From positions 1-40,957 of the forward strand of contig DAOURK010000027.1 of NCBI GenBank assembly GCA_030625085.1: a stretch of DNA of 40,957 nt. The letters run 5' to 3'. Position 1 is the first letter of the stretch. Each line of letters starts with the position of its first letter. Below, piece after piece: positions 12,272-24,422 of the stretch. The DNA is from Pseudomonadota bacterium. Its GTDB lineage: Bacteria; SZUA-182; DTGQ01. A program made the translations under genes and the position numbers. Below the pieces are notes generated by a model. That model searched no databases. It saw nothing but the letters and a program-made list of their open reading frames with translations, and was not told the origin of the DNA.

Positions 12272-12309
12272 ACCAACACTTTTGCAAGCCATTCGTTTTG
12301 ACTGTCGAA

Positions 12310-13811
12310 GCCGCAATCCCTTATTCATCAGGTCTCTGTTTCCGACAGTATAAGAAAGATCCTAAACTAGCTGTTCAAGTAGCTAAAGCGTCTCAATCCC
12401 TTATTCATCAGGTCTCTGTTTTCGATTTTTGTTTTTAGCCTTTTTCTAACCATCCAATATGCAATAGAGTCTCAATCCCTTATTAATCAGGTCTCTGTTT
12501 CCGACTTATAAGGAAATTTACTCTTCGCAACCAACGCTGTTTGAGGTCGCAATCCCTTATTCATCAGGTCTCTGTTTCCTACTATACTTGTTGGTCCTTA
12601 TGGCTGTATGCCGACCAAGATGTCGCAATCCCTTATTCATCAAGTCTATGTTCCCGACATTTCCTCATGATTGTGTAATGACAGCCATGCATGGGCCTCA
12701 ATCCCTTATTCATCAGGTCTCTGTTTCCGACGAAAAATAATGAGATTGTCATCATATTTTAAAATTTACGTCGCAATCCCTTATTCATCAGGTCTCTGTT
12801 TCCGACTTTTATAAAAATAGATGCTGTGACTTGAGGCGAGAAATTATTGAGTCGCAATCCCTTATTCATCAGGTCTCTGTTTCCGACGCTTTACTTGAAG
12901 CATTGGTAAAAGAAGTTTGGCAGTGAGTCGCAATCCCTTATTCATCAGGTCTCTGTTTCCGACTTTCAAGAAATATATGAAAGCGCAATGAAAGGATGCC
13001 ATCATTCGTCGCAATCCCTTATTCATCAGGTCTCTGTTTCCGATCCATTATTACGATCGATCAGAACATTGGTTTGCTAATCTGTCTCAATCCCTTATTC
13101 ATCAGGTCTCTGTTTCCGACGGCAAAACCGATGACGTTCCGGTCGGAGATGTTTTGTATCAGACGTCGCAATCCCTTATTCATCAGGTCTCTGTTTTCGA
13201 CTTAATAGACTATGACTATGTTAAGAACGCAATTCGGTGAGTCGCAATCCCTTATTCATCAGGTCTCTGTTTCTGACAAAATCGGAATTATGGTTTTTAA
13301 AGGTCTCGGTTATTACGTGTCTCAATCCCATATTCATCAGGTCTCTGTTTCCGACAAACTTCTTTCAGCCCGCATGGATGTTGCTGAGACCAAGTCGCAA
13401 TCCCTTATTCATCAGGTCTCTGTTTCTGACATACACGCTCGATCAAACCAAATTAATCGATTCGCAAATTAAAGTCGCAATCCCTTATTCATCAGGTCTC
13501 TGTTTCTGACACTTGATTTACTAATCATTAAAATAAAAGGTTCTGAGGTCGCAATCCCTTATTCATCAGGTCTCTGTTTCTGACTGCAAAGACTGTCCTG
13601 GTCGTCTTCTTTTGGGTAAGCAAGGAGTCGCAATCCCTTATTCATCAGGTCTCTGTTTCTGACTCCGTAATTGTCAATATAAAATTAATCCGCATATCCA
13701 CGTCGCAATCCCTTATTCATCAGGTCTCTGTTTCTGACAGTAAAAGAAAGAAAACATAGAGGATTTATGATTGAGTCGCAATCCCTTATTCATCAGGTCT
13801 CTGTTTCTGAC
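12310..13811 (-). CRISPR. CRISPR array, 20 repeats of 37 bp and 19 spacers (36-44 bp)
   Basis: On the plus strand the repeat begins GTCGCAATCCC, has core TTATTCATCAGGTCTCTG and ends TTTCCGAC; the ends GTCG/CGAC are complementary. Repeat starts: 12310, 12390, 12469, 12546, 12622, 12695, 12770, 12851, 12927, 13008, 13084, 13165, 13241, 13319, 13394, 13474, 13548, 13627, 13702, 13775. I infer transcription from the minus strand. There the repeat ends GGGATTGCGAC, parallel to the usual ...GGGATTGAAAC, giving the 8-nt crRNA handle ATTGCGAC. The degenerate copies (4, 5, 6) lie at the low-coordinate end, as expected for the trailer. The cas genes are also on this strand. Repeats 13 and 15-20 read TTCTGAC instead of TTCCGAC. 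Small ORFs through the array are not genes. Confidence 0.99.
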
Positions 13812-14147
13812 AGCCGCCTTTTTTGGAGCAATAAATACAGGCAGTTAGATATGCATTTTCTGTAACCTATCTTTTTTGATCCCATAACGTTCATTTTTCT
13901 TCTCTTGATTTTTATTTGAAAGCCAATTTTTGCTAATAAAAACATATGGTTCCAATTTTTCTGTAACCACCCCCCTTTTTCGGATTTTTTTTATTTTCGT
14001 TTATAAGCTAAATAATATAAATATTTTCTATTTTGATTATGCATCCTTGCCAATAGCTAATTTTATAATACTATACTACATATTAATCGAAAAAAATATA
14101 CGTAAATTTTCATATATCTCCTTTCGGCATACTTTCTGAATAATTTT
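13812..14147 (-). promoter_or_regulatory. AT-rich CRISPR leader between csm5 and the array
   Basis: 336 bp of AT-rich DNA next to the most uniform end of the array, the expected leader position for minus-strand transcription. The 12-mer TTTTCTGTAACC occurs twice, at 13856-13867 and 13957-13968, 101 bp apart. A minus-strand TATAGTATTATAAAAT near 14054-14070 could hold a -10 box, but no clear -35 was found. Confidence 0.65.
14063..14113 (-). other. Start of a truncated gene or short leader peptide (16 codons) behind csm5
   Basis: AAAGGAG (minus strand, complement of 14118-14124) lies four bases before ATG 14113. The frame MKIYVYFFRLICSIVL then stops. A strong ribosome-binding site with so short an ORF, 34 bp after csm5, suggests the 5' end of a lost operon member cut off when the leader-array was joined, or a leader peptide. 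It is too short to assign. Confidence 0.3.
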
Positions 14148-17855: not shown

Positions 17856-20438
17856 TCACTCCTTTCTTGTGATAAGGCTTATATAGGATACTGGTATTTT
17901 CATCTTTTTTCTTTTTATTATGGAAAAGGCTGTTGTTTGTAAATAGCCCCTGGCCTTTTCATCTTTTACTCTCCTGACCAGGGCGTATAGAAAATGCGGC
18001 ACCCACATGATATTGCCTTTCTTTTCAAAGTATTTGTCAAGCAGGCCCAGATAATAAACAAATCCTTTTGGTACTGGCTTTTCCCCGGTTTCAACATACT
18101 CTTGAAGGGTATGGGTAAAATCCAGTACCTCGTTAAAAGAAGGTGTCCCCGGTCTGCCTCCCCAGGGAAGGGTCTCCCCAAATAAAGTAATTCGGTCCTT
18201 GGCCTTTGGTTCCCCTTGATTCCCTCGCCCTTGGTCATTACCCTGTTTCCTGTCATTATCCTGTTTTGATTTCTCCAATTCCTCAGAGACCAGATGGGCA
18301 AACCTGTGAATGGGGAAATGCGGTCGCACAAAGAGAATGCCCGCTGACAGCGTTACATTCGGATTGTGGCAGGTAAATGATCGAAAATCCTCATAAATCC
18401 TGTTGGCCAGTTTAATGGTTTGGTCCCAGGGGCCGATAATGAAAAGATCATCACCACCGGAATAAACAATATAAAAAAGGCTCACGACTATGCCCTTCAG
18501 CTCCTCCGGTGCCTGATTTTCATCCCACTTATGGGTAAGGTCCCGGCAAAGAAAATTCAGCCATCCATTAAAGAACATTTCAAAATTGCCGCTCAAGGTG
18601 GCCAGACGTGAAATAGAGCATTGATCAAGCCCTAAACTAAAGAGTAAGCCAAGATAATCAACATCCATTTTCAGCACGCCAAGATACTTTGCTCCCGTGC
18701 TCAGGGCAGCCATTTGTTCAAATTCCAAAACGTCGCCTTTTTTGGTCGGTTGATCTGAGGAGGAATTTTTTGGCCAATCTTTACAAGCCAAAGGGGCGGC
18801 ATTTCCAAAAAATTTAAAACCAAAGGAAATAGGTTGTTCAGCTAAATTTTCCTCAATAAAATCAAGCCCGGCCTCTTTTCCTTCTTCTTTTCCTTTTTCA
18901 TTTTCAGGATTGATTCGATACAAACAGCATCTTGCATTCATCTTTTTGGAAAGCATCAGCTTTACATCATTTTTATCCTGAAGGGCGACTGTAAGGTTGC
19001 TAAATTTTTCAAAAGAAATGGTAAAGCCGGGGATGTTTTGGACAGGGCCATAGATAAAAGAAAGGTACTTTTTTTTGGGCAGATAGCGGCCAATGTCCCG
19101 GTGAATAGTGCAGACTACGCACATCGGCTCATAGGCTTGGATGGCCGCAATGCGGCAGGAAGGACACATATCCGCTATTTTTTCCGTTGCTTTAAAGAAA
19201 TCGTCCCGGCCCATGAGCCCGGCAAATTTACGAGCTTTTTTCTCAAGGAGACTATCTTCTGCTTTCCTATAAACAGAGCTGAAATCAAAGAAATCAGCAG
19301 GAGCGATCTCAAGACAAATTGTTTGAATGCTCAATTCTCCCTTAAAATTTTTAAAAAGCCAGGTATCAACTTCTTTTTGCAAAAGGTTTATTCTTTCTTG
19401 AATTTTTGGGGTCTTTGGCAATAAAAGATCAAACCTGCCCCCGGCGCTGAAAAGAATATTGGTAATGGGCATGTTTAACTCTTTGGCCATCCAATCGGCA
19501 ATCACCTCTGTGAGCAATGAAAGATAGAAGGACCGGCCCCGCAATCTTTTTGAAGTGCCTTTGGTGTCTCCCCTTGGGCTGGTAATGCTATAGATGAATT
19601 TTTGTATCCCGGCTATATCAGCCCGAAGAAAAAGAAATAAGGGGTTTGGCCGAAGGGATGAGTCGGTTGGGGCCCTCTTGCTTTCAGATGATTTATCTTT
19701 ATTTTCTCCTTCATGGGTTTCATGTTGCTGTAAAGAACTGACTAAATCAGCCAGTTGGGTATTGGAAAATTCCTTTTCGGTAAAGGCTGCAAGACATGCT
19801 GCTATGGCGCAGGTAACCTTGGTATGATCGAACAGGGATACGTCCGGCGATGTGCGATTAAATTCTCCTTTTTCCCATGGGGTGGCGGAAGGCATCAGGC
19901 TTCCCATTTCCTTGAGAATAAAATATAGGGTGGTAAAATCATGCTCTTGGAAGGGCGCCAACCTATTGGCTTTTTCAACAAAATGCCGCCGGATATTGTC
20001 ATATTCACCTTTTTTAACCTGCCCTGATGAATCTTGGGGTTGAGGAAACAGGGCTTCTTTGTTAATCTGCAAAGTGCCCGGTTTATAATACCCTGCCTCT
20101 CCCTTTTCCCTTATTAATTGTAATCTTGAAGTAATGGCCGACAGGGCAGCTCCATTGGCTGTAATATGGGGATGTTCTACATACCTGTCCCCCGCAGTGG
20201 CCAAAGTATCGGCAAGATAGAGGATACTTTGGGCTCGGCCGGATGGACTATCAAGGATGCCGGCAATAAGATCCGCTATGGCGGCTGTATCGGAAGGGCC
20301 AAATAATGACGTAAAGGAGGAGAGGAAATTTCCCCTAAACTCTCTTTGTCGGGCAAAGTACCCCTCTTCCTCTCTAAGGGATATCTTGCCTATATCATGC
20401 AGCAAGGCTGCCAGCATAATGATTTGTGTAAAATCCAT
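17856..20438 (-). CDS. cas10: Cas10/Csm1, signature HD-nuclease and cyclic oligoadenylate synthase
   Basis: An 860-residue large subunit. The HD nuclease motif is His14-Asp15 in LLHDIGK (ssDNase). A zinc-ribbon is formed by C425-x2-C428 and C440-x2-C443. The first Palm lies before it (RADIAGIQKFIYSIT). The second Palm has the intact cyclase motif GGDD at 661-664 (YSGGDDLFI). Both the ssDNase and the ATP-to-cOA activity are therefore predicted to work, which fits the two CARF proteins downstream. ATG 20438 is preferred over an earlier in-frame Met because AAGGGGG lies about ten bases ahead and the HD motif then sits at the usual distance from the N-terminus. The C-terminal half contains a low-complexity Gln/Asn/Gly linker around 730. 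Confidence 0.96.
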   Translation of the reverse strand: MDFTQIIMLAALLHDIGKISLREEEGYFARQREFRGNFLSSFTSLFGPSDTAAIADLIAGILDSPSGRAQSILYLADTLATAGDRYVEHPHITANGAALSAITSRLQLIREKGEAGYYKPGTLQINKEALFPQPQDSSGQVKKGEYDNIRRHFVEKANRLAPFQEHDFTTLYFILKEMGSLMPSATPWEKGEFNRTSPDVSLFDHTKVTCAIAACLAAFTEKEFSNTQLADLVSSLQQHETHEGENKDKSSESKRAPTDSSLRPNPLFLFLRADIAGIQKFIYSITSPRGDTKGTSKRLRGRSFYLSLLTEVIADWMAKELNMPITNILFSAGGRFDLLLPKTPKIQERINLLQKEVDTWLFKNFKGELSIQTICLEIAPADFFDFSSVYRKAEDSLLEKKARKFAGLMGRDDFFKATEKIADMCPSCRIAAIQAYEPMCVVCTIHRDIGRYLPKKKYLSFIYGPVQNIPGFTISFEKFSNLTVALQDKNDVKLMLSKKMNARCCLYRINPENEKGKEEGKEAGLDFIEENLAEQPISFGFKFFGNAAPLACKDWPKNSSSDQPTKKGDVLEFEQMAALSTGAKYLGVLKMDVDYLGLLFSLGLDQCSISRLATLSGNFEMFFNGWLNFLCRDLTHKWDENQAPEELKGIVVSLFYIVYSGGDDLFIIGPWDQTIKLANRIYEDFRSFTCHNPNVTLSAGILFVRPHFPIHRFAHLVSEELEKSKQDNDRKQGNDQGRGNQGEPKAKDRITLFGETLPWGGRPGTPSFNEVLDFTHTLQEYVETGEKPVPKGFVYYLGLLDKYFEKKGNIMWVPHFLYALVRRVKDEKARGYLQTTAFSIIKRKKMKIPVSYISLITRKE

Positions 20439-20538
20439 TGTTTTATTCCCCCTTATTTGGTCCCTGCATAAATAATAAAATAACAATTCCTGCTATAGAT
20501 TTTCAGATATCATCAACTCATCAGCTTACCAGCTTACT

Positions 20539-21498
20539 TTATGTAACTTCGTACTTCCCCAACCCGAAACTGCTCCCTTTGCCAATATGCACAAATTCCC
20601 CCAGCCGGATATATGGCCAAAAGGGTTTAAGGTCCCCTTGAAAGCGTGCTTCTCCAATAAACCCGCCCATTTTCATACGCGAACCCTGCCTGGTGGAATA
20701 CCGCTCCCAATCATTCCAAAAAAGTTTGCGGAATACAGTTTTAATTTGTTTTGCCTCCTCAATGAGGGTCTTAAACCCTTTATTGTCGAGCTTTTCTCCA
20801 CAATGAAAATAAGAAAGCAAAGAGATGCGGCGCAATAAGTTTCTAAAGAAGATGTGAAATTCAATATTCTTGATCAGTTTGTTTTCATATTTAATTCTGG
20901 TTGGGGTAAGAAAGTTTAAGCAAATCTCTTTTGGACTTTGATCATCAACTATATCCTGCCATACAATAGGGTAAGCGGAATCAGCCAGGGTTTTATTCTC
21001 TCCCTGATAAATGACCTTTTTTATGGGGCCGGCTTTTGACGCGCAATTTCCAGGCATTTCCTCGATTACTCTAAGCAGTTGATATTTCCCCTTACCTTTG
21101 CCAAGCCCATGGCGACCAAGTTCTTCAAAGGTATAAATAAAGTAGGGGAGATAATCCACTGCCCTTCCGATAAGCACCAAACCAAAAGAGAGTTCTTCTT
21201 CATTTTGATAGGCCCTCTGCGTTTCCAGCGGCGGCTCAATAATGAAGGGATGTGGGGCGGCGGTATATTTTCGCATCATCAGCGCCTCTTTTGGTATTGG
21301 TGTCTCAAAGACCCAGGAATACACGCACTGCTGCCGCAAGGAGCAACTCGTGCATTGACTGCTTTTGGTCACACACATTATGCGCCGGAAGGTATGGCCG
21401 AAACCGCCTCGCAAGGCAAAGCCTTTATAGGCGGGGAGAAGAAGAGTGGTTTCTCCTTTAATAAAAAATAGAAATCTTGAAAAGAAAAATGTACGCAT
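20539..21498 (-). CDS. cas6: Cas6, CRISPR repeat endoribonuclease
   Basis: A 319-residue RAMP-fold RNase that cuts the pre-crRNA within each repeat, leaving the 8-nt handle used by Csm. A Cys cluster CVTKSSQCTSCSLRQQC around residues 42-58, common in this Cas6 branch, is followed by FEELGRHGLGKGKGKYQLL and the C-terminal glycine-rich loop HIGKGSSFGLGKYEV. It is the first gene of the minus-strand locus; 100 bp separate it from cas10. No good Shine-Dalgarno sequence was seen at ATG 21498. Confidence 0.92.
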   Translation of the reverse strand: MRTFFFSRFLFFIKGETTLLLPAYKGFALRGGFGHTFRRIMCVTKSSQCTSCSLRQQCVYSWVFETPIPKEALMMRKYTAAPHPFIIEPPLETQRAYQNEEELSFGLVLIGRAVDYLPYFIYTFEELGRHGLGKGKGKYQLLRVIEEMPGNCASKAGPIKKVIYQGENKTLADSAYPIVWQDIVDDQSPKEICLNFLTPTRIKYENKLIKNIEFHIFFRNLLRRISLLSYFHCGEKLDNKGFKTLIEEAKQIKTVFRKLFWNDWERYSTRQGSRMKMGGFIGEARFQGDLKPFWPYIRLGEFVHIGKGSSFGLGKYEVT

Positions 21499-21853
21499 TT
21501 TATCGCCTATTCTTTTCCAAGGATTAGCCAGTGGAGATGGATTTATGACAAATTCACTATTAGAGTAATATTAATATGAAATTCAATTCTTTTCAAGAAA
21601 TAAGTTTCATTTTGAATAACAAAAGATTATTTATCCAAATTTGCTGTTATTTATGCCGATTTCATGCCGAGAAGATCGAGAAGCCGAGAAGCAATTATCC
21701 TTGACGAATTAAAATATTGCCTTTAAACATAGTCAGTATGATTAAGGGTATCGATTATGATAAGTGGCTGCAACCCGGCATTAAAAAAATGAAAATCCCT
21801 GGTAATATAAATTTATTTTGAATTTTTATCAAAATCAGATAAAATATTGTATT
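21499..21853. other. Divergent intergenic region between cas6 and the Rpn-type gene
   Basis: Probably holds the promoter of the cas operon (minus) and that of the Rpn gene (plus). A plus-strand TTGACG at about 21701 is the only good -35-like hexamer; its -10 partner is poor. No palindromic operator or further gene was recognised. Confidence 0.35.
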
Positions 21854-22801
21854 ATGAGTAAAGAAAACTTTTTCCATGATCATGGTTACAAGTATCTCTT
21901 TTCCAATCCAACCTTAGTGCGATATCTGATCACCACCTTTGTAAAAGAGGATTGGGTAAAAGATATCGACTTTACCAGGATGGAAAAACTTGATAAGGAA
22001 TTTATAGGCGAGGAATACGATCGAAGAGAATCGGATATTATCTATAAGGTAAGCTTTCAGGGAAAAGAAGCTTATATATTCTTGCTGATAGAGTTTCAAT
22101 CCGAGGTGGATCGATTTATGGCTTTGCGGGTTTTGCACTATATTTGCAAATTTTATCTTGATTTATTGGAGCTTCATAAATATAAGATACTTCCTCCTGT
22201 TTTTCCGGTTGTGCTTTATAATGGGAATGAGAGGTGGTCGGCGCCTGTTGAAATAGAGAACCTTATTGAAAATGTTAAGGGTTTAGAGGGGTATGTTCCG
22301 AAATTTAAGTATTGTAAAATAGCTGAAAATGAATATTCAAAACAGGAGTTGGAGAAGGTAAAAAATTTGATATCAGCCCTGTTTTATATTGAAAACAGCT
22401 CGGCTGAAGAGATTCAAAAGGCCCTTGGCCAGATTGTTGATATTATAGCAAGTGAGCAAGACAAATCTGCGGTTAAAAGATTTATTATCTGGTTTAAGAA
22501 CCTGGCCGAGAGAAAGCAATTAAAAGGTGAACAGGGCGAAGATTATACTTTTTATAATCCATTGGAGGTGAAAAATATGTTATCGGCAACCTTGGATAAA
22601 ATAAGAGAAGAGGGAAGAAAAGAAGGAAGAAAAGAGGAAGTTATTGGCCTTTTGAAAATATATCTTTTGGCTCGTTTTACTGAGGCGCCGGAGGAAATTA
22701 TGGAGGCGTTGAGGATGAGGGAAAGTATTCAAGAATTAGAAAGCTTGGCTACGAAAATTTATCAATGTCAAAGCCTGGAAGAAATAACCAAGGTTTTATA
22801 A
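21854..22801 (+). CDS. Rpn family recombination-promoting nuclease / putative transposase (PD-(D/E)XK)
   Basis: A 315-residue protein of the PF04754-type family, known in E. coli RpnA-E to nick DNA and raise RecA-independent recombination. It starts KENFFHDHGYKYLFSNP, the usual beginning, so ATG 21854 is preferred over the ATG 12 codons earlier. The nuclease core shows RRESDIIYKVSFQGKEAYIF and LLIEFQSEVD (the acidic D and E-x-Q residues). The tail has REEGRKEGRKEE, a charged helix frequent in this family. A terminator follows after a MITE-like insertion. It stands next to the CRISPR locus and may mark mobile-element history rather than a function in immunity. Confidence 0.88.
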   Translation: MSKENFFHDHGYKYLFSNPTLVRYLITTFVKEDWVKDIDFTRMEKLDKEFIGEEYDRRESDIIYKVSFQGKEAYIFLLIEFQSEVDRFMALRVLHYICKFYLDLLELHKYKILPPVFPVVLYNGNERWSAPVEIENLIENVKGLEGYVPKFKYCKIAENEYSKQELEKVKNLISALFYIENSSAEEIQKALGQIVDIIASEQDKSAVKRFIIWFKNLAERKQLKGEQGEDYTFYNPLEVKNMLSATLDKIREEGRKEGRKEEVIGLLKIYLLARFTEAPEEIMEALRMRESIQELESLATKIYQCQSLEEITKVL

Positions 22802-22816
22802 TCAAACCTTCTATAG

Positions 22817-22909
22817 TTTTTCAGATAATTAATTACTATTTTTTATTGTCGCAATCCTTTTAAAATTGAGGATTTTGAGAGAATATTTTTGTAATTAATT
22901 ATCTGAACG
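22817..22909. mobile_element. 93-bp miniature element with 17-bp inverted repeats
   Basis: TTCAGATAATTAATTAC (22820-22836) is matched perfectly in inverse at 22891-22907, and the direct repeat TCTATAG flanks the element on both sides (22810-22816, 22910-22916), like a 7-bp target duplication. It has no coding capacity. Similar end motifs (TATAGATTTTCAGATA) occur near 20490 and 36629. Confidence 0.7.
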
Positions 22910-22983
22910 TCTATAGTCGGCCTAAAACTATGATCGGTAAAGATTGCCAATCAATACCTGCTGCTTATCCCTCCTTTTTACAT

Positions 22984-23514: not shown

Positions 23515-23653
23515 TTTTATAACGCGCGTTATAAGTGGAGAAGCCTAATCCGATTTTATGACGCGCGCGTCATAAGCAGAGAAGTCTAAGCCGGTTTTGT
23601 GACTCGAGTCACAAGTGGAGAACAGTAATCCTGTTTTGTGACCCGGTGCACAA
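23515..23653. repeat. Four tandem ~40-bp units, each built on an 18-20-bp palindrome with co-varying arms
   Basis: Palindromes: TTATAACGCGCGTTATAA (23517-23534), TTATGACGCGCGCGTCATAA (23556-23575), TTGTGACTCGAGTCACAA (23597-23614), and imperfect TTGTGACCCGGTGCACAA (23636-23653). The first three are perfect although their arms differ from one another. Linkers are related (GTGGAGAAGCCTAATCCGA, GCAGAGAAGTCTAAGCCGG, GTGGAGAACAGTAATCCTG). Centres are 40, 40 and 39 bp apart, close to four helical turns. The function is unknown; see findings. Confidence 0.85.
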
Positions 23654-24076
23654 TGAATATACTTACCACTATCTGCGACCGTATGCTTTAAATAGTAAGC
23701 CAAGTCATTGCCGGCATTACTGGCGCCTCCTCAATGAGCAAAAATCTAAAATCAGCAGTTTATGACAATTCCATCAATAATAGGGGGAGACCCTTGTATT
23801 GAATTGTCTGCCCGATAGAGAAACTAACCATAGTCTTTACCTTGGAGAAAAACACAGAGTACGGTAAGCCGAAAACCTATTCTCAATAACATAAATATAG
23901 AAGGCAGCCTTTTAGAAGGTCTTGCCATCGATCTGGAGCCGGTTTTTAGGGAATAAAATCACTACCGTCTCGCTCATGCCATTTGAATTCGATAAGATAA
24001 GATAAGATAAGGTATATCAACAGATTAAGGGTCAGGCCAGTAATATTATTATCAATTATCCTAATACAGAAGTTGG
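23654..24076. other. Non-coding stretch with a short GATAA tandem repeat
   Basis: No ORF with convincing coding character was seen in these 423 bp. The pentamer GATAA is repeated four times at 23991-24010. Short open pieces (for example around AIDLEPVF near 23930) resemble coding scraps but could not be assigned. Confidence 0.35.
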
Positions 24077-24140
24077 CATTTGGGGATTTAGGCAATATTG
24101 CCTAAATCCCCAAATGAAAAAAAGGGGACAGTCCCCTTTT
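24077..24140. repeat. 40-bp perfect palindrome followed by a second REP-like hairpin
   Basis: CATTTGGGGATTTAGGCAAT (24077-24096) is followed directly by its exact reverse complement (24097-24116). Just after it, AAAAGGGGAC-A-GTCCCCTTTT (24120-24140) forms a second perfect stem with a one-base centre. The GGGGACAGTCCCC core resembles REP-type extragenic hairpins, which are often moved by TnpA-REP transposases. It lies 37 bp before the truncated HU gene. Confidence 0.85.
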
Positions 24141-24176: not shown

Positions 24177-24422
24177 ATGACCAAAGAAGAAATCATCAAA
24201 GCCATCTGGAATGAATTGCCCAATCTCACTATTAATGAATCACGGAAAATATACGAGACCAATATGAATTTGATAAAAGGCCGGCTTTCGAAAGGTGAAG
24301 ATATTGAATTGAGAGGATTCGGGAGCTTCAAGATCAGGGAAAAGAATGAAATAATGGGAAATTTTTTAATGATATCTACTCAGTATTTGCCTATAATGTT
24401 ATTCGGGTGGTTGGCCATTTAG
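24177..24422 (+). pseudogene. Truncated HU/IHF-family DNA-binding protein
   Basis: AAGGAG lies five bases before ATG 24177. Residues 1-57 follow the family closely (MTKEEIIKAIWNELPNLT, then RLSKGEDIELRGFGSFKIRE). Right after KNE the sequence changes to NFLMISTQYLPIMLFGWLAI, which is not HU. The expected arm with GRNPxTG and the DNA-bending proline is missing. The 3' third was replaced by unrelated DNA, so it is unlikely to bend DNA normally. Confidence 0.75.

Follow-up and report, generated by a model that had tools for sequence, protein, structure and literature searches.

A tandem palindrome array from a dispersed, probably REP-like DNA repeat family with paired changes between arms

Introduction

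Four short palindromes stand in tandem in the stretch of DNA analysed here (the window, 40,957 nt), and their sequences differ from unit to unit while three of them remain perfectly symmetric, which raises the question of what keeps the two arms matched as they change. Changes that occur in pairs are commonly taken to prove the presence of a functional RNA stem that evolves slowly via G.U intermediates. Here, paired changes without intermediates are found in dozens of copies within one genome, outpace the surrounding DNA and lie partly in coding sequence. The maintenance of perfect stems, be it by selection, template switching or exchange, thereby becomes countable and testable, and a palindromic repeat family is described in a poorly sampled bacterial phylum.

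Results

The array and its surroundings

The elements of the array are as follows (palindromes have no strand):

23517–23534, palindrome 1, TTATAACGCGCGTTATAA, perfect, 18 bp
23535–23555, + strand, linker 1, GTGGAGAAGCCTAATCCGATT, a variant of the genome-wide flank (GTGTAGTATTT... / ...TAATCCAATT)
23556–23575, palindrome 2, TTATGACGCGCGCGTCATAA, perfect, 20 bp, with an extra, symmetric CG
23576–23596, + strand, linker 2, GCAGAGAAGTCTAAGCCGGTT
23597–23614, palindrome 3, TTGTGACTCGAGTCACAA, perfect, 18 bp
23615–23635, + strand, linker 3, GTGGAGAACAGTAATCCTGTT
23636–23653, palindrome 4, TTGTGACCCGGTGCACAA, imperfect, end of the array

As the initial annotation had reported, four tandem units are present; they occupy 23517–23653 at 39–40 bp from centre to centre (40, 40 and 39 bp), with linkers of 21 bp each. 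Its statement that the units stay palindromic holds for the first three and fails for the fourth, in which two bases of the right arm are altered. About 0.16 perfect 18-bp palindromes would be expected by chance over the whole 41-kb window; those found are the array's own and one at 24088–24105. At 24076–24136, a second long palindrome, GGGGATTTAGGCAATATTGCCTAAATCCCC, is followed by GGGGACAGTCCCC and is REP-like.

The array had been placed upstream of a ParB-N-like gene. No such gene lies immediately downstream: the ORFs there are an IHF/HU-like ORF of 81 aa and an ORF of 507 aa with no Pfam or NCBIfam match, and it is elsewhere in the genome that ParB-HTH gene fragments adjoin many other copies. 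The IHF/HU-like ORF (24177–24422) matches its family over the first two thirds only, then diverges, and is probably truncated or frameshifted. On the other side, a 48-nt imperfect inverted repeat with a 10-nt spacer (22811–22916) lies directly downstream of an Rpn-type nuclease gene (21818–22801). The window also holds a CRISPR array of at least 17 repeats with a period of about 76 bp (12309–13813) and type III genes (Cas10/Csm1, Cas6); this array and its genes (17856–21498) lie 2–11 kb upstream of the palindromes, to which the CRISPR repeat is unrelated. The palindrome array itself was rejected as a CRISPR array, since its palindromes vary, its linkers are similar and the window's genuine CRISPR array is elsewhere.

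Copies are dispersed over the genome

The genome is a draft in 247 contigs, and the counts given here come from pattern and profile searches and from fetched stretches. The pattern TTRTRACNCGNGTYAYAA had 40 exact sites in the 4.94-Mb genome, compared with none for its reversed control, and 39 of the 40 were symmetric, though the pattern permits asymmetry. By profile, the family comprises about 60–70 copies in this genome. A sequence-only model, designed without any reward for arm pairing and with E-values that are rough, located some 70 distinct places, and an ungapped profile applied to the fetched stretches gave 62 copies in this genome, with 3 more in the genome of a sister and 1 in a different phylum.

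Some 35–40 contigs carry sites, which lie between genes, within gene fragments and beside insertion sequences, a distribution at odds with the proposed centromere- or operator-like array. Some copies stand alone and others form clusters of two to five members, with a spacing of 28–59 bp where neighbours are intact; this range, together with the many single copies, argues against the idea that dimers line up on one helical face. On the strand that carries GTAG, GTGTAG follows the palindrome at a distance of 2 nt; the units of the window have GTGGAG or GCAGAG in its place.

The strict pattern was absent from the 59 other genomes of the relatives search, and the sister genome (G002) has one copy by a broader pattern and three by the model. 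A search of some 85,000 species, each represented by one genome, returned one pattern match, in a deltaproteobacterial groundwater metagenome-assembled genome (MAG) that is unrelated to the source genome and holds a few copies. A viral origin was rejected, as the viral pattern matches (L049, L151) are asymmetric chance matches; the exact CCGG-type palindrome had no viral match and none in phages. A plasmid origin was likewise rejected, the plasmid matches being only 25 bp long and at chance level. An Rfam search returned nothing relevant to the palindromes, and predicted promoter and terminator sites were at the level of shuffled sequence, with no terminator in the array. The central CGCGCG resembles telomere-resolvase sites; this reading was rejected, because cleavage at every site could not be reconciled with dozens of intact copies in the chromosome.

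The two arms change together

In an alignment of 58 distinct copies, the half-site TTnTnACnCG is fixed and three pairs are variable (3/16, 5/14 and 8/11). The mirrored arm changes described in the initial annotation, and the enrichment of compensatory changes, were borne out over dozens of copies: the covariation score is 0.321, as compared with 0.104 ± 0.011 in shuffles, of which 0 of 500 reached the observed value, and 0.002–0.09 in controls with a slid register. Standard pairs make up 94.1% of pair cells (83.2 ± 0.8 when shuffled; at most 49% in slid registers), and two-sided changes number 62 versus 16.4 ± 3.2 in shuffles. All four Watson–Crick states occur at pair 8/11 (CG 23, TA 13, AT 10, GC 7, other 5), three at 5/14 (A, G or T at pair 5) and two at 3/16, while the remaining six pairs hardly covary. 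At the three variable pairs, one-arm intermediates are almost absent, with G.T in only 2 cells among the 58 sequences.

Because G.U intermediates are almost absent, the constraint on the palindrome looks to be at the DNA level, not at the RNA level. Of the claim that selection acts on symmetry rather than on sequence, pairwise constraint at three positions is upheld and the RNA-hairpin part is not. Were the units transcribed regulatory or processing elements, the somewhat better folding of the array RNA compared with shuffles (z = -2.9) would be accounted for, but pair 8/11 would then close a 2-nt loop, which is impossible in RNA, the scarcity of G.U pairs contrasts with REPs (PMC3733652), and there is neither an Rfam family nor a terminator in the array. 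We consider RNA hairpins very improbable.

A further possibility is that a dimeric protein binds the palindromes as duplex DNA, either as operators or as parS/NBS-like sites; the ParB-HTH protein whose gene fragments carry palindromes would be a candidate. A dyad symmetry with a CG centre resembles parS- and Noc-type sites, and the flanking fragments have ParB-HTH homology (HTH_ParB E = 2.4e-4, narrowly missing the Pfam cut-off). However, the arms match although pair 8 accepts four bases; a dimer that ignores which base stands at pair 8 should tolerate asymmetry, and a double-stranded site of that kind would not require matched arms. A fixed site of the parS/Noc type was rejected on the four bases at pair 8 and A, G or T at pair 5. 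The spread over contigs, the many single copies and the irregular spacing also speak against this explanation, as does the finding that the gene copies recovered are fragments, and we regard it as improbable. This leaves either a hairpin or cruciform formed by the DNA, or copying between arms or between copies.

Variable pairs change faster than the flanks

The effect of shared ancestry was removed by joining copies with aligned flanks (>=55 bp, <=16% divergent) in a spanning forest of 52 comparisons, some edges of which are based on flanks of only 55–85 bp. Complementary double changes numbered 46, against 1.2 expected at the flank rate, whereas single changes were fewer than expected (36 versus 73). 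The doubles fall at pairs 8 (22), 5 (14), 3 (9) and 6 (1), and nowhere else. Differences affect about 33% of sites in the variable pairs and 7.6% in the flanks, so that the former change about four times faster.

Two copies on one contig (C44:35953 and C44:38951) have 2 mismatches in a common flank of 85 bp, yet their palindromes differ at two pairs in both arms; several copies at 2–5% flank divergence similarly differ at two pairs simultaneously. Conversely, no paired change was seen in copies with long near-identical flanks (divergence of at most about 3%), namely C19/C29, C68/C142, and C205 with its homologue in G002, where the pairs are identical apart from one single decay. These few cases suggest that rewriting of the palindrome may accompany dispersal or exchange and not time. 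Free decay in homologous loci had been named as the observation that would count against constraint on the palindromes, and it is seen in part: in the sister homologue, two palindromes are intact and one has a decayed arm, and single decays are present among copies within this genome too.

Many copies lie in frame within gene fragments

Many copies are found in frame inside decayed HTH_ParB/DNA-methylase gene fragments, flanked as AAATACTACAC-palindrome-AATTGGATTAT, where they read L-[IMV]-T-R-V-[IT]-K (C66, C95, C145, C111, C215 and others); C66, for instance, reads ...SHYITIAKNLNTT-LMTRVIK-LDYCSARELAKLPQNKQ.... The fragments' methylase match has E = 5.4e-13. About 20 fragments of this HTH gene occur in the genome, many of them interrupted or truncated. 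With the translations of fragments C95 and C66 joined as a query, for searching only, no match at E <= 0.001 was obtained in the phylum's other eight genomes, and none was found in plasmids, phages or viral contigs.

A homologous fragment in the deltaproteobacterial MAG (68% DNA identity) has another perfect palindrome, GGTAACGCGCGTTACC, in these very codons. Two divergent gene copies (C97 and C100) have an imperfect palindrome, TTATGCGGCGCGGCATAA, encoding other residues, and the same number of codons. Since the protein has no extra length at that place when the perfect palindrome is missing, the palindrome looks native to the HTH gene and not inserted, and the tandem units, those of the window included, look to be derived from that gene.

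In this frame, two of the three variable pairs (5/14 and 8/11) join third codon positions to third codon positions. Pair 2/17 does so too, yet is nearly invariant. These observations bear on the main rival explanation, in which mutation bias would suffice: an inert relic of the HTH gene would undergo template switching from arm to arm during replication, single mutations would thereby become paired, and the fixed positions would reflect coding constraint in the source gene. The in-frame reading and the third-third position of the freest pairs fit this scheme, as does the imperfect version in the divergent copies C97 and C100, and published work shows that template switching can generate perfect stems and keep them perfect (PMC8794818). 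On the other hand, non-coding copies also vary only at pairs 3, 5 and 8, while under template switching alone all pairs would be expected to covary once a copy is non-coding, and the near invariance of pair 2/17 also speaks against this explanation. Moreover, differences at two pairs between copies with 2–5% flank divergence would be too fast for mutation followed by correction. We therefore view template switching on coding relics as possible but unlikely.

Palindromes at breakpoints and beside mobile elements

The ends of gene fragments often coincide with the palindrome, and a difference of 191 bp from the sister genome stops at the edge of a palindrome. With regard to a possible MITE nature of the repeats, the copies have differing flanks, and none of the loci offered a clean empty site. 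An IS or MITE with the end CATTTCGTTATGATAG lies inside a palindrome in two of its three copies, and beside one in the third; at C45 and C135, this end splits the palindrome after the seventh base. The elements concerned are:

L140, near 4264, IS/MITE with end CATTTCGTTATGATAG
L138, near 248, IS/MITE with end CATTTCGTTATGATAG
L027, near 1177, IS/MITE with end CATTTCGTTATGATAG
L159, 2269–3834, IS91-like element, terminal hairpin CGCCCGAAGGGCG, GTTC end
L160, 2028–3594, IS91-like element, 89% identical to the L159 copy, same terminal hairpin and end

No transposase or recombinase was tied to the palindrome repeats, in an analysis whose genome-wide transposase search covered the Y2 type, and the Y1-type (PF01797) transposase motif was absent from the fetched copy flanks. 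IS91-family genes adjoin palindromes at two sites, as would be expected if the palindromes were terminal hairpins of IS91-like or other rolling-circle transposons. Comparison of the two IS91-like copies, however, defines the end as GTCCGCCCGAAGGGCGC...GTTC with a hairpin of its own that differs from the palindrome; the latter has no constant position relative to the element end and belongs to the flanking target DNA at just one of the two copies. This reading is largely refuted. An integron attC site was also rejected, as the half-site here is TTRTRAC and not the RYYYAAC/GTTRRRY core.

Discussion

We propose, with a probability of about 0.58, that the four units are a local tandem cluster within a scattered, gene-derived, REP-like family of palindromic DNA repeats, kept symmetric through hairpin copying or whole-palindrome exchange. 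A short segment of an HTH_ParB/DNA-methylase gene would be the source of the units, or would have evolved together with them, and the palindrome would act at the DNA level, as a hairpin or cruciform. On this view, every new or rewritten copy starts out with a complete, symmetric palindrome: one arm may serve as template for the other (hairpin or template-switch copying), or the entire palindrome may be swapped with another copy (by conversion, or by hairpin insertion). Single changes would later make the copies decay. A putative protein may recognize the fixed half-site, and the six other pairs would therefore lack covariation. Alternatively, restriction of change to pairs 3, 5 and 8 could stem from coding-sequence ancestry instead of recognition.

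The repeats resemble REP/BIME/RAYT systems (TnpAREP; GTAG- or CGTC-tagged) in being short, perfect or near-perfect palindromes, dispersed as single copies or short tandem clusters that lie mainly between genes and at times within them. They fall within the definition of dispersed palindromic repeats of 20–50 nt, at a copy number that is moderate, and low for REPs. They differ in that no GTAG stands immediately 5' of the hairpin, the GTAG being on the wrong side for a canonical REP, and in that three hypervariable pairs change faster than the flanks, with no associated transposase found in the fetched flanks. G.T pairing, frequent in REP stems (PMC3733652), is near absent here (2 cells at the three variable pairs in 58 sequences). 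REP stems are recognized by structure plus some bases (PMC8266576, PMC3733652).

Rickettsia palindromic elements also lie in frame within genes; unlike those, the present repeats do not appear to add length to the host gene, C97 and C100 having an equal codon count. The mitochondrial repetitive hairpin-forming and double hairpin elements (PMC2800124) are likewise mobile-looking, dispersed hairpin repeats with no known mobiliser, but they belong to other genomes, and the apparent coding origin and restricted covarying pairs are particular to this family. Stems maintained by template switching (PMC8794818) share the perfect pairing and the apparently simultaneous compensatory changes; here, however, the changes are confined to three pairs, are faster than in the flanks and affect many dispersed copies.

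As a variant of the proposed rewriting, a DNA-level process might replace whole palindromes as cassettes, yielding hypervariable, always symmetric tags within the fixed frame TTnTnACnCG, which would leave differing perfect palindromes between almost identical flanks. This diversification or hairpin-exchange system, possibly driven by defence, we hold to be doubtful. The possible defence pressure is raised because a decayed CRISPR-like array in the deltaproteobacterial MAG carries palindromes of this family in its intervals. That array lies at a contig end (JACRCK010000117.1; L046/L150, 1–361) and a type I-C CRISPR repeat served for comparison. Its repeat-like motifs recur every 63–69 bp; of the five intervals, three hold perfect family palindromes and a fourth holds a near-perfect one.
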